From positions 1-33,858 of IMG/VR virus record IMGVR_UViG_3300035698_021901: 33,858 nt of DNA, one strand, 5' to 3'. This document shows, in pieces, positions 1,509 to 30,361 of the stretch (positions within the stretch are counted from its first letter, which is position 1; every line of letters begins with the position of its first letter). A model generated the notes under the pieces. That model worked only from the letters and a program-made list of their open reading frames with translations. It had not been told where the DNA came from and ran no database searches. This stretch comes from a virus. Both the position numbers and the translations under genes were made by a program.

Positions 1509-3823
1509 AAACCATGAAAACTGCAAAAAGTAAAGTCAAAACCAAGTCACCTCAAGTCAGAATAACCGGCCAGGTCTTACGAATCATATTCCCACGCCCC
1601 GGCCAGGAGCATACCGGCTGGACGGCAGGGATATTGAGGCCGGATTGCAAAGAAAAAAGTTCAAAGGATGAAAATAATTCTTTGGAAGGCCACTTCGAAC
1701 CAGTCTGCTTTGACATTCGTTTCCGTGGCAACATACATGTTAAACAAGGCGACCAAGTCACCCTCTCCGGTCATCATGTAACCGACTCGAAATACGGCCA
1801 TCAATTCCAGGTAGAGCAGGTCATTCCGGAAATGCCATGTGACGCCAAAGGGCTCGCCAATTTCATTGCAAAGAACAAGGAAATCAAGGGTATTGGCCCG
1901 GTGAAAGCAGCTAAGTTGGCTAAAGCCTTTGGTCAGGAATTCGAAGAAGTTCTGTTAAATCACCCCGAAAAAATAGCCTCAATAGCTTCAATATCCCTGG
2001 AAGTAACCATGCAATTTCAAAAGGTGTGGAAAGCCAATATAGAGATGAATGCCATTTCGGTTTGGCTCGCAGGTTTCGATTTAACCCACCATGAGATTAC
2101 CTTGTTAACTGAAAAGTATGGAACCGACGCAAAGGCAATTCTCACTCAAAACCCCTATCTTATGATACAGGACATCAACGGGTTCGGATTCAAGAAAAGC
2201 GATAAAATCGCTTTAAAGATGAGGATTAAGAAGGATAGTGATGAGCGGGTTGACGCCGGGATTATCTACACAGTGAGGGAGACCCTGGACAAGGAAGGGC
2301 ACTGTTGGATTGAAGAAGAGGAGCTTATTAAGAAAGCTAACAAGCTTTTAATCATGGATAGGAGGGATTCCAAGTTTGTAATAAGCGCAAGGCTCACAAA
2401 TGTTGTAATGAGCGGTGAATTAGAAATGATGACTCTGAAAGGGAAGAAGACGATATTTGGATTAAAAACCATATTTGAGGCAGAGACCTTTTTGGCGCAA
2501 TGTTTTGAAAATATGCATGACGAAGCAAATGCTCATTTCCCAGCACGAGACCTTAAATTGTATAAAGGAGAAGGATTAAACAAAAAACAATTTTCTGCTG
2601 TTAAGAAATTCATGGTGTTTGGTACTTCAATCATATCCGGCTCTGCCGGGACAGGCAAGACATACACCATCAAGGAGATTCTTCGAATCTGTCATTCCCG
2701 TGACCTACATGTCACCCTCTGTGCGCCAACGGGGAAGGCCGCGAAGCGGATAGAAGAGCTTGCGGGCTTCAAGGCCAGTACGATTCATAAGACGCTGGGA
2801 GCCCGGGGAAACAATGTTTTCACAGTAAACGAGGAGAACCCCCTGGAAACCGATGTAATAATAATTGACGAAGCGTCTATGCTTGATGTCTATTTGGCAC
2901 GCCGGCTCTTCCTCGCATTGAATCCCAACACGGCAATTGTATTAATTGGAGACCACAACCAGCTACCCCCTGTTGGCCCCGGCTACATCCTGCGAGACAT
3001 GTTATCCTCATCTTTAATACCCTCTACAATCCTCACACAATGCATACGACAATCCGGAACTTTGAAACACAATTGTAATGATATTCTACATGGCAAAGTG
3101 GCGAAAACAGAATGCGTAGCACCGGAGGAGCATCCTGCTTCTTGGTACATCGTCAAGGAGAAAGAACCGCAGGTTCTTCTGCAAAACATTATCGACATGT
3201 TCAATGGAGGCTTTCAGGATATTGGCTATTCCCCTGTCTATGATGTGCAACTCATCACCCCCACGCACAAGGGTATTCTGGGCACTCGCAGTCTGAATCT
3301 GGCAATACAACGGGTCATGCAAAAGATGTTATATGGGATTGATGTGGAGCCTGTGGCGGCTCACAAAAAGATCACTTTGTATCCCGGTGACAAAGTCATT
3401 CAGACGAAGAATGACTACAAGTTGGACATCATGAATGGCGACCAAGGTATTGTTCAAAAAATAACAAAACAGCACATTGAAGTGTTATTTGGAAAGCAAA
3501 ATGCAATGCAAAAAGGAGATACATCTGGCAATACATCGCATGTTGAATTAATCCCCCGTACTGGCAATCATTTGGAGCTTGCATACGCCCTGACAATCCA
3601 CAAGTGCCAGGGTTCGGAATTCCCCTGCGTTTGCGCTATCATTCACAAGCAACACTGTTGGCAGCACCATCGGAATTTGCTCTACACTGCCGTTACCCGT
3701 GCCCAAAAAACAGTCATTCTGTTTGGCGATACATGGGGAATTGGGAATTGCGCTAAAATCGAGAAGGTGCTGGACAGGAATACTTTTCTGAGCTTGTTAT
3801 TGAAAAAATGGGAGGTGAAATAG
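1502..3823 (+). CDS. RecD2-like SF1B DNA helicase
   Basis: A 773-residue helicase of the RecD/RecD2 family (5'-3' SF1B), about the usual length for RecD2. The N-terminal region carries helix-hairpin-helix sequence (GIGPVKAAKL, 130-139). The motor follows: Walker A SGSAGTGKT (379-387, K386), Walker B VIIIDEAS (D456, E457), motif III GDHNQLPPVG (483-492), motif V LTIHKCQGSE (about 698-707) and motif VI YTAVTRAQ (R733). All key residues are present. It starts at 1502 inside the 17-bp repeat and ends one base before the next gene. It probably acts in replication restart or recombination beside the ERCC4-type nuclease; RecB and RecC partners are not visible, which fits RecD2 rather than RecD. Confidence 0.92.
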   Translation: MIKTMKTAKSKVKTKSPQVRITGQVLRIIFPRPGQEHTGWTAGILRPDCKEKSSKDENNSLEGHFEPVCFDIRFRGNIHVKQGDQVTLSGHHVTDSKYGHQFQVEQVIPEMPCDAKGLANFIAKNKEIKGIGPVKAAKLAKAFGQEFEEVLLNHPEKIASIASISLEVTMQFQKVWKANIEMNAISVWLAGFDLTHHEITLLTEKYGTDAKAILTQNPYLMIQDINGFGFKKSDKIALKMRIKKDSDERVDAGIIYTVRETLDKEGHCWIEEEELIKKANKLLIMDRRDSKFVISARLTNVVMSGELEMMTLKGKKTIFGLKTIFEAETFLAQCFENMHDEANAHFPARDLKLYKGEGLNKKQFSAVKKFMVFGTSIISGSAGTGKTYTIKEILRICHSRDLHVTLCAPTGKAAKRIEELAGFKASTIHKTLGARGNNVFTVNEENPLETDVIIIDEASMLDVYLARRLFLALNPNTAIVLIGDHNQLPPVGPGYILRDMLSSSLIPSTILTQCIRQSGTLKHNCNDILHGKVAKTECVAPEEHPASWYIVKEKEPQVLLQNIIDMFNGGFQDIGYSPVYDVQLITPTHKGILGTRSLNLAIQRVMQKMLYGIDVEPVAAHKKITLYPGDKVIQTKNDYKLDIMNGDQGIVQKITKQHIEVLFGKQNAMQKGDTSGNTSHVELIPRTGNHLELAYALTIHKCQGSEFPCVCAIIHKQHCWQHHRNLLYTAVTRAQKTVILFGDTWGIGNCAKIEKVLDRNTFLSLLLKKWEVK

Positions 3824-4875: not shown

Positions 4876-7449
4876 GTGATTAACCCAGACAACTCAAAAC
4901 CAGCAACCCAGGCGCATGTTATTCAAATCGGCAATATAAATAACCTGAAATATTACCTTGAAAAAGGATTATTCTCTCGCAAGTCCCGCGAGGAGTGCCC
5001 TACCTGCCACCACAATACATTCTGTATTAAGAAAGATAAAACACTTGCAAAGTGTTTCCACCCATCCTGCAACCTCTATATATCTATCTATGGGGGACAG
5101 AAAACTTCAATCTATACAGAAGCTTATGAGCTATTTAAGGAATTTTATAAGATATGCCATGATGAATTATTACGGCAAGCTGACACTGCCAATACGGAAT
5201 TCCCTGATTTTGACTCTCAATTCGAAGCCAAAAACGCCTACAATTATTGTGTATTAGAAAGGAAGATACATCCGAAGGTTCTCAAGCAGTCTATGATAGG
5301 CGTCCTTCCCCCCTACACTTCATGGCAACCCATCATGCAGAAAAAGATTGATGAGTTAACTCAAAAGCATACAGCCGGCTACAAGCAGTCCCTGGAAGCT
5401 TTCAACTTGACTCATGAGGAATTCGAGAGAATTCTCGGACTGGCCAAAAACGGTGTGAAGATGACGGATAAAGAGAGCAAGGCTCATAAGGCAATAACTC
5501 AGAAGAATAAAGATATAAGCATATTACATGATATTTTCGATAAATTCTATAATGTGTTTAAAGAGTTTGCCGCAGGGTGGCTTGCCTTTTTCTACACAGA
5601 TCATCGCCACAATATCAAGTCAATCAAAATTAGGAAGCCCTATGCCTCCTCTAAAAGTTGTTATCTGTTTAAGCCATTCACCGCCCAGGGCTTCTTTAAC
5701 CATGGTTTATTTTCGCCTGGAGATAACAACATTAAAGATGAAGAACGGAAGAAGTGGAAGGAAGAATTGGCGTCAAGAATCCTTCTTATGGAAGGTGAAT
5801 TCAATCAGCTTCAACTTCAATCCCTTTTCCTTCGCCTCAATTTGGATTTTATCCATGCGGCGGCCTGGGGAAGCGCAGCTTCTTTACACGCCCAGGATGT
5901 TCTTTCTGCCAATTGGAAGCCCATTGTAATATATGATAACGATGAGGCCGGGCATTCTGTATTAGAAAAACTACAGGCTGACATGACTTTTGCGGCTTTC
6001 ACGACGCCTACCCCCGACTCGGATTTAGATGACTTCGTCATGTCTTTTAAGGAAGACTACAAAGAAGCATACAAATCCCTAAAAGCCCTGATGAATGATC
6101 GCAAAATATTTTACTGGCAACCTGACAATATTGATTGGGCAAAAGTATTGAAACCGGGAGGGAAGGGAGTCAAAATTTGTTATCCCAGGATAGCAGAGCA
6201 CTTCATAGAGAGGTACAAACCCTTCACTATCGGCGGGAAGGTCTTTATGTATGAAAACGGGCTTTACAGTCCCGACAAAATTGGTAACATGCGACATCAA
6301 ATACAGAGGCTTATGAGGGAAGAAACTACAAGTTTCTCTGTCAATGAAATCATGGGATACATAGAGAGGCATGAGCCCATTTCAACTGCAAAGACAGACA
6401 GGCAGGCTTGTAATTTAATTAACCTTAAGAACGGCATGTTAGATTGGAGAGCTGGAAAACTCTTACCACATGACCCCAAATATTTCTCAACTATTAGGAT
6501 ACCTCTGAATTATGACCCGGACGCCAAAAGTGAGCTTATAGAAAAGTATCTCAAAACAACATTAGACCCCTCTATTATACCTCTTGTAGAAGAATTCGCA
6601 GGATACCTCTTAATCCCTGAAACAAAGTTTGAGAAGGGTATCATAGCCACCGGCGGGGGAGATAATGGAAAATCAACTTTTATCGCACTCTTGGAGGGGC
6701 TTATTGGAAGGGAAAACATGTCAGGATTGAGTCTCCAAGACATAACAAGTGATGACAAATTTGTTGTTTCTGTTTTGTTTAGAAAGTTGGCGAACCTTTA
6801 TGATGACCTGGATAACAGTCTTATTCAGCTATCTGGCAAAATCAAGCTATTAATATCGGGGAAGACTACCATCACTGCCCAGGAGAAGTTTAGAGACCCC
6901 TTTGAATTCCAACCATTTGCCCGCTTCATTTTTACATGTAATGAATTGCCAGCGACGAGGGATAGGACACATGGGTTTTGGAGGAAATGGCTTATTATAC
7001 CATTTGAGAAACAATTTAGAGCTGGCGACAAAAACACGATAAGAGGTCTTGACGAAATGGTTAGAGACACCAAGGAGCTATCTGGTTTTTTAAACATGGC
7101 GGTAGGCGGGCTTCGCAGACTCCACCATAATAATGTGTTTTCTAAATCGGAGAAGATTGAAGAGGCCATGTCAAAATATCAGAAGCAAGCTGACCCGGTT
7201 CGAGCCTTTGTAGATGATGTTTGTATTTTAGGTAAAACCTATGAAATTAACCGGAAATTACTGTATAAAGATTACTGCGAATACTGTGAAGACAGCGGAA
7301 TAAAATCCCTTGGTAGAAATAAATTCTATTCGCATATAGAAACTACCTTCAACTTGAAAACACGAAAAAAGCCTGATTTTCGAGTTTTTTGTGGAATAGG
7401 GATTAAATCGGAAGAGGAGGGTTCAGCATGGGATGTAAGAAACTATTAG
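4876..7449 (+). CDS. primase-helicase (CHC2/TOPRIM plus D5-type SF3 helicase)
   Basis: An 857-residue replication protein joining primase and helicase. A CHC2-like zinc site comes first (C41, C44, C60, C65). A TOPRIM catalytic core follows: LLMEGEF (E306) and YDNDEAG (D354, D356), then a second acidic patch (DSDLDDF). The C-terminal half is a D5-like SF3 helicase with Walker A GGGDNGKST (593-601, K599), an acidic LYDDLDN motif (about 641-647) and a sensor-like TCNELPATRD (N689). Downstream sequence fits a D5 C-terminal winged helix. The start is GTG at 4876, with GAGGGAG at 4861-4867, three bases after the previous stop. It should unwind the origin and lay RNA primers; the inverted iteron array begins 17 bases after its stop. 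Confidence is high. Confidence 0.92.
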   Translation: MINPDNSKPATQAHVIQIGNINNLKYYLEKGLFSRKSREECPTCHHNTFCIKKDKTLAKCFHPSCNLYISIYGGQKTSIYTEAYELFKEFYKICHDELLRQADTANTEFPDFDSQFEAKNAYNYCVLERKIHPKVLKQSMIGVLPPYTSWQPIMQKKIDELTQKHTAGYKQSLEAFNLTHEEFERILGLAKNGVKMTDKESKAHKAITQKNKDISILHDIFDKFYNVFKEFAAGWLAFFYTDHRHNIKSIKIRKPYASSKSCYLFKPFTAQGFFNHGLFSPGDNNIKDEERKKWKEELASRILLMEGEFNQLQLQSLFLRLNLDFIHAAAWGSAASLHAQDVLSANWKPIVIYDNDEAGHSVLEKLQADMTFAAFTTPTPDSDLDDFVMSFKEDYKEAYKSLKALMNDRKIFYWQPDNIDWAKVLKPGGKGVKICYPRIAEHFIERYKPFTIGGKVFMYENGLYSPDKIGNMRHQIQRLMREETTSFSVNEIMGYIERHEPISTAKTDRQACNLINLKNGMLDWRAGKLLPHDPKYFSTIRIPLNYDPDAKSELIEKYLKTTLDPSIIPLVEEFAGYLLIPETKFEKGIIATGGGDNGKSTFIALLEGLIGRENMSGLSLQDITSDDKFVVSVLFRKLANLYDDLDNSLIQLSGKIKLLISGKTTITAQEKFRDPFEFQPFARFIFTCNELPATRDRTHGFWRKWLIIPFEKQFRAGDKNTIRGLDEMVRDTKELSGFLNMAVGGLRRLHHNNVFSKSEKIEEAMSKYQKQADPVRAFVDDVCILGKTYEINRKLLYKDYCEYCEDSGIKSLGRNKFYSHIETTFNLKTRKKPDFRVFCGIGIKSEEEGSAWDVRNY

Positions 7450-7465
7450 AAGTTGGAAAAATACC

Positions 7466-7565
7466 TGGCACTTATGACAGTTCATGGCAGTTTTATGGCA
7501 CTTTTTATGGCACTTTTTTAAGCGGAAAGTCCCACTCTATCTGAATAATGGCACTTATGGCACTT
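7466..7565 (+). repeat. iteron array, left half (TGGCACTT)
   Basis: Five perfect TGGCACTT copies at 7466, 7496, 7508, 7549 and 7558, plus a one-mismatch copy TGGCAGTT at 7485. Two pairs are spaced tightly (12 and 9 bp). All point the same way and none lies in a gene. This is the left half of a probable replication origin. Confidence 0.85.
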
Positions 7566-7650
7566 ATTTTCTATTAATTTAATAAGAAAAAATAAACAGT
7601 AAGTAAGGTAAGAGTAAGTAATATGTATATACCTATATATGGGTGAAAAA
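7566..7650 (+). other. AT-rich core of the putative replication origin
   Basis: About 85 bases of strongly AT-rich DNA (runs such as ATTAATTTAATAAG and AGTAAGTAA repeats, then TATATACCTATATAT) between the two oppositely oriented iteron arrays. This is the expected place for initial duplex melting. The AGTAAG-type elements (AGTAAGTAAGG, GAGTAAGTAA) could be further initiator or single-strand binding sites. No gene and no convincing promoter is seen here. Confidence 0.6.
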
Positions 7651-7819
7651 AAGTGCCATAAGTGCCAGGAATTTTTTAAACATACTGTTCATCAGGGTTT
7701 CCGGTGTCGCAAAAGTGCCATCAAAAGTGCCATCAAAAATAGGGGTTTCCCGCTTATGTACAGGTCATCGGAGTTTCCTCTGAAATCGGGTGACCCGAAA
7801 AGTGCCAGCAAAAGTGCCA
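7651..7819 (-). repeat. iteron array, right half (AAGTGCCA, inverted)
   Basis: Six perfect AAGTGCCA copies, the reverse complement of the left-half unit, at 7651, 7660, 7713, 7725, 7800 and 7812. They come in three close pairs (9, 12 and 12 bp apart). Together with 7466-7565 they form a mirror-image array around the AT-rich core. A stray copy lies at 9808-9815. Confidence 0.85.
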
Positions 7820-7849
7820 TTCGGCAAGAATAGAAAAAGGAGTGAAATT

Positions 7850-8548
7850 ATGAGTGAAAATCAAGTGGAAATTCTACCCAAAAATGAGGTGGAAAATATA
7901 GAAGAATCATACTTTTATGTCAACCTATCTGACATGTCTTTTCTAAGCAAAAAACCCTCTGAGTGTCCATTTGAGGGCGTCATCTTTGCTAACAACACCT
8001 ACTACCGCATTCTAACGCCCCTGTTGTTTGACTGGCTTAACTCTAAGTTCAGGAGGATTAAAGAGTTGCACTTATCCGGTGGGGTGCCCAAAGGCTTTTT
8101 TCCTCCCATTCGCAAGAATTTCTTGCAGATACAGAATTATGCAAAGAGGATGTGGGGGGGAACCTTAAAATTTTGTATAGATACTGAGAAAGAAGAGTTT
8201 TTTGGTCTTTTCTCTGATTTAAACCTTATAGAGCCTTTCTTTAACCAAGTTTTGAGGATGGAAGAAATGCTTATAACAACAAAATCGGAGGAGGTGGAGA
8301 CCAAATATTTTATCGAGAAATGGTTGACCATGACTAAGGAGTTTTACCCCGAATACTGCGATAACAAAGCGATGTGGTTGACTGCTGCATATCAACTTTT
8401 TAAGGAGTATGGCAATTTGCTTTACATGACAGAGAAGATAGCGACAGAAGACAGAAAGGAGACTTTATATAGGATTGTTGGAATCCTTGGAGCCGAGCTA
8501 CAGAGAGAGTTTAGAGAGCAAGAAAGCGAGGAGGAGGAGGCATTATAA
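7850..8548 (+). CDS. hypothetical acidic protein next to the origin
   Basis: A 232-residue soluble protein I do not recognise, with a strongly acidic end (REQESEEEEAL). The N-terminal half contains short hydrophobic strands (GVIFANNTYYRIL); the second half looks helical. The ATG at 7850 is chosen because AAAGGAG (7836-7842) precedes it; an in-frame upstream extension to 7790 would translate iteron DNA and lacks a ribosome site. The stop overlaps the next start by one base (TAATG). As the first gene after the origin it could be an origin or replication accessory factor, but no DNA-binding motif is evident. Confidence 0.65.
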   Translation: MSENQVEILPKNEVENIEESYFYVNLSDMSFLSKKPSECPFEGVIFANNTYYRILTPLLFDWLNSKFRRIKELHLSGGVPKGFFPPIRKNFLQIQNYAKRMWGGTLKFCIDTEKEEFFGLFSDLNLIEPFFNQVLRMEEMLITTKSEEVETKYFIEKWLTMTKEFYPEYCDNKAMWLTAAYQLFKEYGNLLYMTEKIATEDRKETLYRIVGILGAELQREFREQESEEEEAL

Positions 8549-13367: not shown

Positions 13368-14735
13368 ATGACAATTAAAATAGCATGTGAAACAAAACAT
13401 AGTTTACCGCTTGCGGATTTAACATGTCTTCAAGGTGACCTAAAAACCCTGTCTGATGAGAATAAAGCGAAGCTTAGAAAGCAGATTGTAGAGAAGGGAT
13501 TCATTGCTCCGTTCTTTGTGTGGAAAAATGAGGAGAATGGCAAGGTTATAAATTACATCATAGACGGACATCAACGGGAAGTCGTTCTAAAAGACATGGC
13601 AAGTGAAGGCGAGGAATTGCCCGGAGCCTTTCCTGTTGTGTATATAGAAGCAAAAGACGAGAGGGACGCAAAAGAAAAGCTCCTGGCTATCAACTCACAG
13701 TATGGCAAGATGACCGAAGAATCTTTATTTAATTTTGCAGAAGAACTTGATTTCAAGTTTGAGGATTTAGGCGATTTCCAGTTTGCCGGGATTGATACGG
13801 AGGGATTGGAAGGATTGTTTGATGAGGCTAACGAGCCAGAGCATACTGATGAAGACAACATTTGCACCGCTAAAAAGAATGAAATTATAGTTGATAATGA
13901 GGAAGAATTTTTAGAACAATTCGATAGATTTATTGTTTCTTTTTCAGGAGGGAAAGATAGCACTTTTCTTCTTTTATGGGCATTAGAAAATTTACCAAAA
14001 GAGAAAATAAGTGTTTTGTATTGGGATTCTGGTCTTAATTGGGAAGAAGAATATCAATTTTTACAATACATGTGTAGTAAAAATGATTTAGAATCTATTG
14101 TTTGTGGCTATAAAGATGCGGAATTAATTGAAAAAACAGTGATAGAAAAAGGTTATCCTTTTTATGGTAATTTGTGGTGTCAATCATTATTAAAAATTCA
14201 TTCCTTGGCTAGGGCGGGGAAGTATATTGAGGAGAAATACGGAAAAATATTATTATTAAACGGGATAAGGCACGCAGAGGCAGGTTCGGCGAATGCTTCA
14301 AAGCGGGGGCAATATCCTCGTTTTTACATGGAAGGCAGTAATAAGAAACCGATGTTCTGCCCCCTCATAAAAGAAACCGATGAAGATTTGATTGCATATA
14401 TACAGAAACATAACGAAAAGATTTTACCGCTTTATAAATGGGCAAACAGAACGGGATGTTGGTTTTGTCCTAATAGCGATGTGAAAATTCGTGCTTATAT
14501 AAAAATTAAACATCCTGTGAAATTGGTTTATATAAATGAGTTATTATGCAAAGGCATGAAGAATAAGGTTTGGAAAGAGAAGAAATTTGAGGATTTATTT
14601 ATTTTTTTCAATTCTCCCAAAGAGTTGGTGAAGGGAAGCTTTAGCGATATTGCTTTCACGGAAGAAGAATTCAAAATAGCCGTTCAAGAGCAACAGAACG
14701 AGAATTATAAAAAAAGTATAGATTTGCGAGATTGA
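13368..14735 (+). CDS. ParB-like domain fused to PAPS-reductase/DndC-type domain
   Basis: A 455-residue fusion. The N-terminal third is a ParB/sulfiredoxin-like domain with IIDGHQRE (64-71) and a following AKEKLLAINSQYGKM stretch typical of phage ParB-like proteins. After an acidic linker (about 150-175) comes an ATP-pyrophosphatase of the PAPS-reductase class: FSGGKDST PP-loop (192-199), SGLNWEEE, LNGIRHAEAG, and a Cys pair GCWFCPN (C364, C367). Phages often carry these as two adjacent genes; DndC (phosphorothioation) and IbrA belong to the same class. Likely roles are adenylation-based nucleic-acid or thiol chemistry at specific DNA sites. From about 13860 the DNA is visibly more AT-rich, suggesting the second domain came from elsewhere. 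Confidence 0.85.
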   Translation: MTIKIACETKHSLPLADLTCLQGDLKTLSDENKAKLRKQIVEKGFIAPFFVWKNEENGKVINYIIDGHQREVVLKDMASEGEELPGAFPVVYIEAKDERDAKEKLLAINSQYGKMTEESLFNFAEELDFKFEDLGDFQFAGIDTEGLEGLFDEANEPEHTDEDNICTAKKNEIIVDNEEEFLEQFDRFIVSFSGGKDSTFLLLWALENLPKEKISVLYWDSGLNWEEEYQFLQYMCSKNDLESIVCGYKDAELIEKTVIEKGYPFYGNLWCQSLLKIHSLARAGKYIEEKYGKILLLNGIRHAEAGSANASKRGQYPRFYMEGSNKKPMFCPLIKETDEDLIAYIQKHNEKILPLYKWANRTGCWFCPNSDVKIRAYIKIKHPVKLVYINELLCKGMKNKVWKEKKFEDLFIFFNSPKELVKGSFSDIAFTEEEFKIAVQEQQNENYKKSIDLRD

Positions 14736-23318: not shown

Positions 23319-25472
23319 ATGAATCCAGAGGTTGAAATATTTGTTTCTACAATAGGTCAAGGGATTTTTCCAAAATGCATGCAAGCCCTAAAAAGCCAGA
23401 AGAATTCTTATCCTATTCATGTTGTGGAGAATGTGCAACCTATGAACGAAGCTTTTAATACTATGATTCGTGAAGCCTCACTTAAATATTTCGTTCAAGT
23501 TGATGAAGACATGGTGCTTTATCCCGACGGTATCCAGAGATTGCACGATAAGATTGAGAAGGCTCCTGGTAATGTAATTTGTGTTTGTTTGGACTTGTAT
23601 GATACGGGATTAAAAAAACAGATTCAAGGCGTGAAAATCTATAAGACAGAACCCATGAAATCCTTTGTCTTCAAAAACCGGGTCGATTGCGAAATGGATA
23701 TTATTCGTCAATGGACACAATCAGGATTCAAAATTGACATAGTGAAGGAAGTCGCCGGGACACATGAGCCGTGTTTTGATTTAAAGTCAACTTTTATGCG
23801 ATATAAACAATTGGCAGAGAAAGAGTTATATGGCTTTGAGGTTATGACTGGATTCTTAAAAGATTTGATGGAAGATTATAGGAAAAAACCACAGGATTTA
23901 AAAAGATTGTTTGCGGTGCTGGGTGCGGTTGCAGGTTTTTCTTCTTCTCCTATCATAGCGAGTAAAGAGCGAGGGATACATGATTATGAAAGCATTGCTT
24001 ACGAGAGATTTTATGAATATTTCAAGAACGGTAGGAGGGACATCGATGTGAAGGGTTTGAATACACCAAAAATATCAGTGATTTTGCCGATATATAAAAA
24101 AGAATTGAGGTATCTCAGGGAGGCAATTGACTCGATTTTGAATCAATCCTACCATGATTTTGAATTGCTATTAGTTCTGAATGGGACTCCCCCGGACATT
24201 TTAGCGGAAATGGAGAAGTATGCAGAACGAGATAAGCGAGTTAAAATTCTATATATGGAGGAAGCGAATCTTGTTAATGCTTTAAATCATGGGATAGAAC
24301 AATCAAAAGGAAAATACATTGCCAGGCAGGACGGGGATGACTTAAGCGATTTGAATCGATTTATGGTGCAGGTAGATTACTTGGAAAAACATCCTGATAT
24401 ATCCTTCATCGGCTCTTCTGCCAAACTTATTGATAAGGACGGCTCTTACCTGCGCATGTGCCCGCAGGCGCGAGGGATGGCAAAAATCAATAAGTTGTTG
24501 CAGTACAACAATGCTTTCACGCATGGGAGCGTCATGATTCGGGCTGACATTTTAAAGGATAACCATTATTCTACAAGCAAAAACCATCTACATATTGAAG
24601 ACTTAGAATTGTGGAAGCGATTGATAGCGCAGGGGCATAAGGCAGACAATCTGGCTCTTCCTCTCTATACATATCGCTGTGCTGATGGTGTTTGCAGAAA
24701 CTCAGAGCAGGCAAAAATTCAGAATCAGAATCGCCTAAACTTGGTAAAAAAGAAGGCTATTAATAAAACTTATTCAGAGGAAGACTTGGAAGAATTTTCG
24801 AATTATACCATGACTTTATTGAGGACAAAAGAGGTTTGCGAGGAGAAGAATATTCCATACAACATTGACGGGATGGATAATTCAGAGACATGGAAACCTC
24901 GGTTCTGGGAATATTCGCATGCCGTTAATTGCACGGCAGTGAAGAAAGGCGACAGAGTCTTGGACGCCGGGAGTGGCTATTCGCTCTTTCCTGTTTTACT
25001 TGCACGCCTGGGGTGCCATGTGCATTCACTGGATTTGAATTACCAGGAAGAGAGAGCTTGTTTGGCAGCGAAGCTAAATCTCGATATACAAGCTGATAGA
25101 GGTTCTTTCCTCAAGCTTCCCTACCCTGATTCTTATTTCGACAAAGTCTTTTGTATTAGTTGTATAGAACATCTGCAGGATTTGTCGCATGTGAAAAAGG
25201 CGATGAGCGAATTCAGGAGGGTATTGAAGCGTAAGGGATTACTCTTCTTGACAGTTGACTACCACAAGGATTACATTGAATACGGCAAGGCCGGGTGGAA
25301 GTGGTCTTCGCATACCAGGTTCTATAACTGGCAAAACATCCTGGAGAAAATTGTGTATCCTTCTAACATGGAACTTGTGGGGAATAACAACATATACGAC
25401 ATGACAGATTGGGATAATCCCCCGCTTTACGGAAACTACACTTTTGCTTCGATATTATTGAGGAAGGATTAA
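23319..25472 (+). CDS. three-domain protein: GT-A, GT2 and SAM methyltransferase
   Basis: A 717-residue chain of three enzymes. Residues 1 to about 230 resemble a GT-A glycosyltransferase, with YFVQVDEDMVLYPDG (D62, D64 as the metal-binding DxD). A family 2 glycosyltransferase follows from about 249: PKISVILPIYKKE, LREAIDSILNQSYHDFELL, and ARQDGDDLSDLNRF (D338, D340, D341), ending near 480. From about 530 comes a class I methyltransferase: VLDAGSGYSLFPVLL (547-561), HSLDLN and FDKVFCISCIEHLQDL. Together it could add two sugars and methylate the product. Such fusions are common in surface glycan loci. The gene ends one base before the next ATG. Confidence 0.85.
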   Translation: MNPEVEIFVSTIGQGIFPKCMQALKSQKNSYPIHVVENVQPMNEAFNTMIREASLKYFVQVDEDMVLYPDGIQRLHDKIEKAPGNVICVCLDLYDTGLKKQIQGVKIYKTEPMKSFVFKNRVDCEMDIIRQWTQSGFKIDIVKEVAGTHEPCFDLKSTFMRYKQLAEKELYGFEVMTGFLKDLMEDYRKKPQDLKRLFAVLGAVAGFSSSPIIASKERGIHDYESIAYERFYEYFKNGRRDIDVKGLNTPKISVILPIYKKELRYLREAIDSILNQSYHDFELLLVLNGTPPDILAEMEKYAERDKRVKILYMEEANLVNALNHGIEQSKGKYIARQDGDDLSDLNRFMVQVDYLEKHPDISFIGSSAKLIDKDGSYLRMCPQARGMAKINKLLQYNNAFTHGSVMIRADILKDNHYSTSKNHLHIEDLELWKRLIAQGHKADNLALPLYTYRCADGVCRNSEQAKIQNQNRLNLVKKKAINKTYSEEDLEEFSNYTMTLLRTKEVCEEKNIPYNIDGMDNSETWKPRFWEYSHAVNCTAVKKGDRVLDAGSGYSLFPVLLARLGCHVHSLDLNYQEERACLAAKLNLDIQADRGSFLKLPYPDSYFDKVFCISCIEHLQDLSHVKKAMSEFRRVLKRKGLLFLTVDYHKDYIEYGKAGWKWSSHTRFYNWQNILEKIVYPSNMELVGNNNIYDMTDWDNPPLYGNYTFASILLRKD

Positions 25473-28184: not shown

Positions 28185-28198
28185 CATTGGAGGATAAC

Positions 28199-30361
28199 AT
28201 GCTAATAGGAGTTTCATCTTTCGACCTCGTTTGGGGTGGTATTCAGATTCAAATGCTGAATCACATGAGGTATTCCCAAAATGACTTTATTATATTTGCC
28301 GATAAAAGCGGATGCATGACAAAGCTATTCGAGGCTCTGCCGAATGTCAAGGAAATTGTGATTTGCGAAGACCATGAGATTTCAGACCTGGCAAAGCAAA
28401 AGAAGGTCGACATGTTCTTACATCATACCGTGAATCACACGAGTCGAAATTCCGTGGTGAAGCTAAAGGAACTGAGCATTCCGACTGTAGTTTTTCATCA
28501 TTGCGCTTTCCTGCCGATTTATTCGGCTTCTCTTATCGACGCCATTATCACGACTTCCAAGAATAATGTATTAATAATAAAACAGAACGAAAGCTTTAAA
28601 AACATGGAAATTGACAGTATTCACCTATCCCTTGATTTCGCTCCCTATGATAATGCGTGTGATGTTAAGGAGATTAAGAAGAAGTATGGAATACCTTTAA
28701 ACAGAATTGTTATAGGCAGGATGGGAAGATTAGAGCCGGGGAAGTGTCCGGAAGACTTCTTGAAATCAGCGAAGCAGCTTAAAAAGAAACATCCTAAATC
28801 ATTTTTCATCATAGGCGGCGCTCTATCCGTTTTTAAAAGCCAGCAATACCTGGACGGATTGAAGAATAAAGCTCGTGAGCTTGGACTGAAAGATGGCAAA
28901 GACATCTTATTTACCGGGGAAATTTCAGAGCAAGAGAAGGCAGACCTTCTAAACTGCATGGATATATTTCTGTACCCCACAAAGTGGGAGGGATACTGCA
29001 TGGCATTTTTGGAAGCTATGTATCTCAGAAAACCAGTGATAACTTATGCTAATTTTGCCAATAAAGAAACCATTGGGAATGGTGGGGTTGCCGTGAAAGA
29101 TGGAGATATAACTGGACTTGTGCGGGAAACCATGCGATTAATTACAGACAAGAAACTGAGAGAGCAGATAGGAGAGATGGGAAGACAACTTGTAATACAA
29201 AGAAATGAAGTGAAAGAGTTTGCCGGGAAAGTGGACTCGGTTTTAGACAGGATTCATGTAAGTAAAAGATTGGAAATCAAGGAGAAAAACAACATTAAGT
29301 TAGCATTAGTGGGATGGGGATTTGTGGACGGCATGGAATCTATCCCTGAATACTTGCAGCTTAAACATTTCTATGAAGCAGGATTGAACCTTGATTTCTT
29401 TTGTATCACGGCGAATGGAATGAAAAGTTTTAATGGATTGAAAATAAATCGTTCAAAAGCCTTCAATCCGACCTTGCTATCTCGCAAACCGCAAGTTTGT
29501 CACCTTCATCATGTGGAGAATCCATTATCAAAACAAGCTGCAGAATGGGCAAAGAGCCAGAACATTCCCGTAACCATGAATATCCATTCTTTCACACAAT
29601 CACCCGCTCCTTATCTCCCTCTTGTTGACAAATTTATTGTCTTCTCTGAAAAGGAATTTGACATGAGAAAAAAGGAGATACCGGAAGACAAACTTGCTAT
29701 AATTCCAAATGGGATTGATGTGGGGAGATATAAGAGTGGAGGGAATAAGTTTAAAAATGAGAAAGACCAGGGGAAATTCAATATATTGTATGTAGGTCAA
29801 CTCTTTGGTTGGAAAGGCATATATCGGATTGTTGAAATAGCGAATCACCTGAAGGGCAGAAGAACCGACTTCTGCTTCCATATTGTTTCACATGTTATAG
29901 GGGAGTTGGAGCAACTCCGGAAGAGTATAGCGAAGAGCGGGTTGCAAAACTTTGTCAAGGTTTATCCGGCCAGTCACGGGGAAAGACCATTTGAGGAACT
30001 CTTAGAATACTACGCTTCCTGCGATGCATTCCTTCTCCTCACAGATATTGATTGTTTTCCTACTACTCTCCTGGAAGCCATGGCAAGTAAAAAGCCATGC
30101 ATAGCCACGGCGGTAGGTGGGATTCCAAATATTGTTGACCACGAAGTCACCGGCTTCCATGTTGGATTCTGGAAAAAAGAACAAAAGAAAGTACGGGTTG
30201 AAGAGGTTATTGAAAGAATTGAGCAGTTGATTGAGAACCCGGATTTATGTCAGAAAATGGGAGAAGCCGGGTATCAGAAGGTATTAAAATACCATGATAT
30301 AAGGATACAGATTAAGAAGTATGTTGAGGTATTTAAAGAGGTTTTGAAAGGAAGGGAATGA
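28199..30361 (+). CDS. tandem GT-B (GT4-like) glycosyltransferase
   Basis: A 720-residue protein with two GT4-type, GT-B-fold enzymes in a row. The first occupies about 1-355: VSSFDLVWGGIQIQML at the start, GRMGRLEPGKCPEDFLKS, and the E-x7-E motif EGYCMAFLE (E264, E272). The second occupies about 370-715: LALVGWGFVDGMES, VCHLHHVENP, IPNGIDVGRYKSG, YVGQLFGWKGI, and DCFPTTLLEAM (D618, E626; the first acidic residue is Asp rather than Glu) followed by CIATAVGGIPNIV. GGAGG at 28189-28193 supports the ATG at 28199. It could make two successive sugar linkages. The domain calls are secure; the sugars are unknown. Confidence 0.88.
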   Translation: MLIGVSSFDLVWGGIQIQMLNHMRYSQNDFIIFADKSGCMTKLFEALPNVKEIVICEDHEISDLAKQKKVDMFLHHTVNHTSRNSVVKLKELSIPTVVFHHCAFLPIYSASLIDAIITTSKNNVLIIKQNESFKNMEIDSIHLSLDFAPYDNACDVKEIKKKYGIPLNRIVIGRMGRLEPGKCPEDFLKSAKQLKKKHPKSFFIIGGALSVFKSQQYLDGLKNKARELGLKDGKDILFTGEISEQEKADLLNCMDIFLYPTKWEGYCMAFLEAMYLRKPVITYANFANKETIGNGGVAVKDGDITGLVRETMRLITDKKLREQIGEMGRQLVIQRNEVKEFAGKVDSVLDRIHVSKRLEIKEKNNIKLALVGWGFVDGMESIPEYLQLKHFYEAGLNLDFFCITANGMKSFNGLKINRSKAFNPTLLSRKPQVCHLHHVENPLSKQAAEWAKSQNIPVTMNIHSFTQSPAPYLPLVDKFIVFSEKEFDMRKKEIPEDKLAIIPNGIDVGRYKSGGNKFKNEKDQGKFNILYVGQLFGWKGIYRIVEIANHLKGRRTDFCFHIVSHVIGELEQLRKSIAKSGLQNFVKVYPASHGERPFEELLEYYASCDAFLLLTDIDCFPTTLLEAMASKKPCIATAVGGIPNIVDHEVTGFHVGFWKKEQKKVRVEEVIERIEQLIENPDLCQKMGEAGYQKVLKYHDIRIQIKKYVEVFKEVLKGRE

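Follow-up and report, generated by a model that had tools for sequence, protein, structure and literature searches.

The window analyzed here is an entire virus record from IMG/VR, 33,858 bases in length, which codes for its own virion components, namely a terminase (PF05876), a Mu-type portal (PF06074) and a major head protein (phrog_1005). Genes for a RecD2-like helicase and an ERCC4 nuclease are found upstream of a primase-helicase gene, behind which lies a mirrored array of short repeats (iterons) around an AT-rich core (Table 1). The gene at 7850 begins directly after the array, and nothing in Pfam, PHROGs, NCBIfam or phage records matched its 232-aa product. A short way downstream of this proposed origin region, the contig codes for a deoxynucleoside kinase (PF01712; 8679–9521). 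Elsewhere, a gene with a PAPS-reductase domain (13368–14735) is flanked by the terminase and portal genes, and the structural region features two large glycosyltransferase-domain genes (23319–25472 and 28187–30361), the first of which also has a methyltransferase domain.

Table 1. Features of the primase-helicase gene and the iteron array behind it.
Feature	Coordinates	Strand	Details
Primase-helicase gene, proposed initiator	4876..7449	+	857 aa, GTG start
Left iteron arm	7466..7565	+	TGGCACTT at 7466, 7496, 7508, 7549, 7558
AT-rich core, proposed melting region	7566..7650		85 bp, 80% AT
Right iteron arm	7651..7819	-	TGGCACTT on the minus strand, reading AAGTGCCA, at 7651, 7660, 7713, 7725, 7800, 7812
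Second short repeat between right-arm pairs	7695..7778	+	GGGTTTCC at 7695, 7743; GAGTTTCC at 7771

The first-pass annotation of this DNA had described five perfect sites and a near-copy to the left of an 85-base core and six inverted sites to its right, starting 17 bases past the primase-helicase gene, and our analysis reproduced these coordinates: since the gene ends at 7449, the first iteron at 7466 falls on the 17th base beyond it. The left arm includes near-copies at 7485 (TGGCAGTT, one mismatch, plus strand) and 7475 (TGACAGTT, two mismatches, plus strand), along with a one-mismatch copy on the opposite strand at 7527. Outside the array, just two further copies of TGGCACTT/AAGTGCCA are found in the whole 33.9 kb contig, at 3602 and 9808. 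The annotation's expectation of far fewer than one site by chance also held, with ~0.012 iteron sites expected per 354 bp (Poisson p ~1e-29). Shuffled versions of the contig contained a mean of 1.14 copies per 33.9 kb and never 13, while shuffling the 500 nt behind the primase-helicase gene yielded a maximum of three copies of any 8-mer. The core, likewise noted earlier as AT-rich, has an AT content well above the 60% of the contig and is the lowest-GC 85-mer among all 33,774, the ties being overlapping windows at its own position.

The mirroring of the array extends beyond the polarity of the individual sites. The iterons occur in pairs 9 or 12 bp apart, as the annotation had stated, and the order of these pairs is itself mirrored between the arms, with a 9-bp pair innermost and a 12-bp pair next outward. 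Thus, the innermost 9-bp pairs form an inverted match of 96% over 23 nt (7549–7571/7645–7667), and the 12-bp pairs one of 93% over 27 nt (7491–7517/7711–7737). The second short repeat is partly mirrored too—GGGTTTCC belongs to the mirrored pair 7519–7533/7742–7756 (repeat families D6 and I11). A loosely similar element, ATCAAGGNTTT, was recovered in 6 of 40 D5-type loci, where 1.4 would be expected and shuffles reached at most 5, which is suggestive only of a second element common to D5-type origins.

The product of the gene preceding the array has a P4/D5-type SF3 helicase domain at residues ~448–827, with a predicted C-terminal winged helix at residues ~770–835. It matches PF08706, PF19263 and PF03288, with RFX_DNA_binding scoring below its cut-off, and its score of 188.8 bits against TIGR01613 (curated cut-off 108.7) places it in the P4/D5-type family. 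Its N-terminal half weakly resembles TOPRIM, the match to Toprim_2 (E 0.008) falling short of the cut-off. The sole sequence match of the protein in the PDB is 7ola (E 2.2e-20), labelled a DNA primase, which we take to be the SaPI5 primase-helicase. An AlphaFold2 model of the C-terminal 148 residues has a pLDDT of ~95 over residues 61–130 of that fragment, which span the winged helix. The top Foldseek matches of this model, none of which reached an E-value of 0.001 or better, were the DNA-bound RFX DNA-binding domain 1dp7 (TM-score 0.77 by target) and RFX5. At the sequence level, a profile of the C-terminal domain likewise finds 7ola (E 1.4e-10) and RFX5 (0.003), as well as C962R, the primase of African swine fever virus (0.011). 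The tail domain of C962R has been set beside RFX1 and the winged helix by which P4 alpha binds its origin (PMC10516667). Together, the PF03288 match and the RFX-like predicted fold point to a probable C-terminal DNA-binding domain, which we predict to be an RFX-like winged helix.

The annotation had proposed GC skew as a check on an origin at this locus; run on the contig itself, this revealed a switch from a C-rich to a G-rich strand near the array. At fourfold-degenerate sites, the G–C balance is −0.23 to the left of the array and +0.07 to the right (385 versus 1,126 sites; Fisher p 5e-7). An unconstrained search placed the change point at 6,936 in the raw sequence (block-permutation p 0.002) and at 6,924 at the fourfold sites (reached in 0 of 2000 site permutations), albeit coarsely, with a bootstrap interval of about 5.0–12.1 kb. 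Gene direction does not explain the switch because the genes tested to the left and to the right share one orientation, although gene content or transcription could contribute, as the class of genes differs between the two sides. Provided that leading strands are G-rich, as is generally held, the sign of the skew fits two forks diverging from the array.

We then examined the relatives of the primase-helicase. Those in phages and plasmids have ~20–35% of residues in common with it over the helicase and C-terminal part, and several of them feature a gap of ~210–370 nt directly 3′ of the gene, which holds inverted iterons of a different sequence. The iteron word is GTTACGT in a Streptococcus phage, ATAAGACA in an S. 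epidermidis phage and GTAACAGA in a Paenibacillus phage, all directly behind the gene; CCATCAC in a Lactobacillus phage and AGAACAG in a mycobacteriophage (Mycobacterium), again behind the gene; and GAGGCAA in a Bordetella phage, with one intervening gene between the D5-type gene and the array. The closest good analogue is a Jeotgalibacillus locus, where CGCCAAA is ordered +++++----. Thus, distant relatives preserve the plan and change the iteron word. Phages of Oceanotoga, Vibrio, Morganella and Parabacteroides are without such a gap behind the gene. A DNA search of phage records recovered no relative, and viral contigs searched with the primase-helicase, an alignment of it with one relative, and the terminase yielded no relative. 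When contigs were scanned for paired TGGCACTT sites, most of the hits were unrelated. A few had inverted TGGCAC arrays near primase or DUF3987 genes, among them L046 (9382–9563, with a Prim-Pol/DUF3987 gene nearby) and L070 (3977–4109, with a DUF3987 gene nearby); while selected by the motif itself and hence biased, they raise the prospect that the mirrored layout may not be confined to D5-type helicases.

To gauge how common this organization is, we surveyed loci coding for D5-type proteins, obtained by searching 299 genomes of one phylum with the Pox_D5 model and adding further loci, and scored 34 of them for an exact 7-mer overrepresented, relative to shuffled sequence, in the 450 nt following the gene (p < 0.02; both method and cut-off were picked after the first loci had been viewed). 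A significant array was found behind the Pox_D5 winged-helix gene in 13 of the 34 loci, 12 of which are mirrored. Two controls, one inside the same genes and the other behind terminase genes, yielded none of 34 and 1 of 27, respectively (Fisher p 0.0016 for the terminase comparison). These counts include the near-identical L161, L164 and L165 separately, as well as L151 and L152, which repeat L136 and L147; dropping such duplicates lowers the count by about three and leaves the contrast with the inside-gene control in place. Same-strand neighboring iterons across the loci are mostly 8–12 bp apart. The layout is not universal, since 21 of the 34 loci are without a significant exact 7-mer, some of these showing weaker mirrored sets by eye. 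A shared iteron consensus, TGTRRCA with a fixed polarity, was tried and proved not significant (70 versus 51 sites, p 0.10). In L174, twelve GTAGCAG sites occupy the 450 nt behind a D5-type gene at perfectly palindromic intervals (9,12,19,47,9 / 103 / 9,47,19,12,9).

Taken together, these observations indicate that the array is most likely a phage replication origin, a reading that is well supported by its position, the AT-rich core, the skew switch and a layout kept in distant D5-type phages, including Streptococcus phage Sfi21. Very probably, its iterons are recognized by the primase-helicase encoded immediately upstream, with melting by a double ring and diverging forks. Under this model, the C-terminal winged helix of that protein would bind the TGGCACTT iterons on both sides of the core, engaging them in pairs 9–12 bp apart. 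Because the arms point in opposite ways, two helicase rings would be loaded in opposite orientation; these would melt the AT-rich core and launch two diverging forks, implying bidirectional firing, with primers synthesized by the same primase-helicase protein.

The main alternative regarding the initiator is that the array is an origin whose iterons are bound by the 7850 product or a host factor, with the primase-helicase merely recruited. The start of the 7850 gene directly after the array, and the TGGCAC arrays of the motif-picked L046 and L070, which accompany DUF3987 rather than D5 proteins, would agree with this. We nevertheless consider it unlikely: the 7850 protein is without a family match in the databases listed above, arrays occur right behind D5-type genes in many phages despite differing downstream neighbors, and the C-terminal domain of the related SCCmec protein Cch2 binds its own downstream repeats (PMC7581432). 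The first-pass annotation had judged the initiator not obvious and named the primase-helicase and the 7850 protein as candidates; with its predicted winged helix and the Cch2 analogy, the former now stands out, whereas nothing in our analysis speaks for the latter.

Repeated sites can also be used by repressors, and the array does occupy the gap ahead of the 7850 gene, as would a regulatory operator or boundary element of the downstream operon with no part in initiation. This appears quite improbable, as we found no forward promoter-like or terminator-like site in 7350–7950, and no regulator gene is apparent beside the array; further, the contig reaches its highest AT content at the core, and both the skew switch and the conserved place behind D5-type helicases would be left unexplained. 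Finally, although plasmid partition and the packaging of some phages use repeated sites, a partition or packaging role is barely credible, with no ParA/ParB-like Pfam match among 20 window proteins (a subset of the ORFs), the terminase gene 4 kb from the array, and mirrored arms with an AT-rich core beside a helicase being better suited to initiation.

With the array thus favored as an origin served by its own primase-helicase, the layout can be placed in a wider context. The origins of PICIs, which comprise an AT-rich region between two iteron sets 3′ of rep and were shown to drive a plasmid, have been described as having a mirrored organization unique to these elements and found in no other known bacterial replicon (PMC6092414); the SaPI/PICI rep-ori is also credited to Ubeda et al. 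2007, as cited in PMC7581432. Our survey instead indicates that phages and prophages widely carry the mirrored layout. In a literature search that left most subscription papers outside its reach, we found no paper reporting this, and yet the annotated origin of Sfi21 provides at least one phage example of long standing. We consider it probable that tailed phages and prophages of several bacterial phyla share a general type of replicon, namely mirrored iteron origins behind D5/P4-type genes, in which the words vary by lineage and the geometry stays constant—pairs 8–12 bp apart, inverted arms, and an AT-rich core often of 60–110 bp. If true, this would contradict the claim of a PICI-only organization and tie satellite and phage replicons together. 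It would furnish a simple rule for locating origins in the genomes of many phages and prophages, namely inverted short repeats with an AT-rich core right behind a D5/P4-type primase-helicase gene, and offer many naturally varied initiator/iteron pairs for tests of DNA recognition and helicase loading. Of the annotation's proposal of a probable new origin, the origin part is well supported and the novelty of the layout does not hold, this being the published SaPI/PICI layout (PMC6092414). Nor is the inverted layout rare, the annotation having supposed inverted iteron halves to be rarer than one-direction ones: with arrays in 13 of 34 loci, 12 of them mirrored, and the Sfi21 origin besides, it is shared with SaPI/PICI and common behind D5-type genes in our survey.

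Individual known systems show both likenesses and differences. As in the SaPI/PICI rep-ori, the origin in the contig lies immediately 3′ of the initiator gene (7449 to 7466), with five and six sites flanking the 80% AT core. The iteron word differs, and the contig, which encodes a terminase, a portal and a head protein of its own, represents a phage and not a satellite defined by helper-phage dependence; the N-terminal half of its primase-helicase is weakly TOPRIM, unlike the archaeo-eukaryotic type primase of SaPI5 (PMC7581432). Cch2, a D5-family helicase, has a putative origin just behind its gene, which its C-terminal domain binds in isolation (PMC7581432). Its reported iteron, AAGTG, equals the first five letters of AAGTGCCA, a match short enough to be due to chance, and its putative origin comprises a direct-repeat block of just three iterons, with no mirrored array. 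The alpha protein of phage P4 belongs, like the contig's protein, to the TIGR01613 helicase family. P4 additionally needs a separate crr repeat cluster, unlike the contig, which may be incomplete and has two isolated TGGCACTT copies in place of a second cluster. According to PMC10516667, the origin-binding domain of P4 is of the winged-helix type and has a relative in RFX1. Among phages, the parallel is with Sfi21 (NC_000872): its annotated 302-bp origin lies directly behind a D5-type primase-helicase gene and likewise features an AT-rich center flanked by inverted iteron pairs, although its iteron is AGTTAC-like, it belongs to another phage family, and its initiator is ~23% identical to that of the contig over the helicase part. 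Thus, the layout is that already known from SaPI, PICI and Sfi21, and what is new is the iteron word, in a phage for which no close relative was found.
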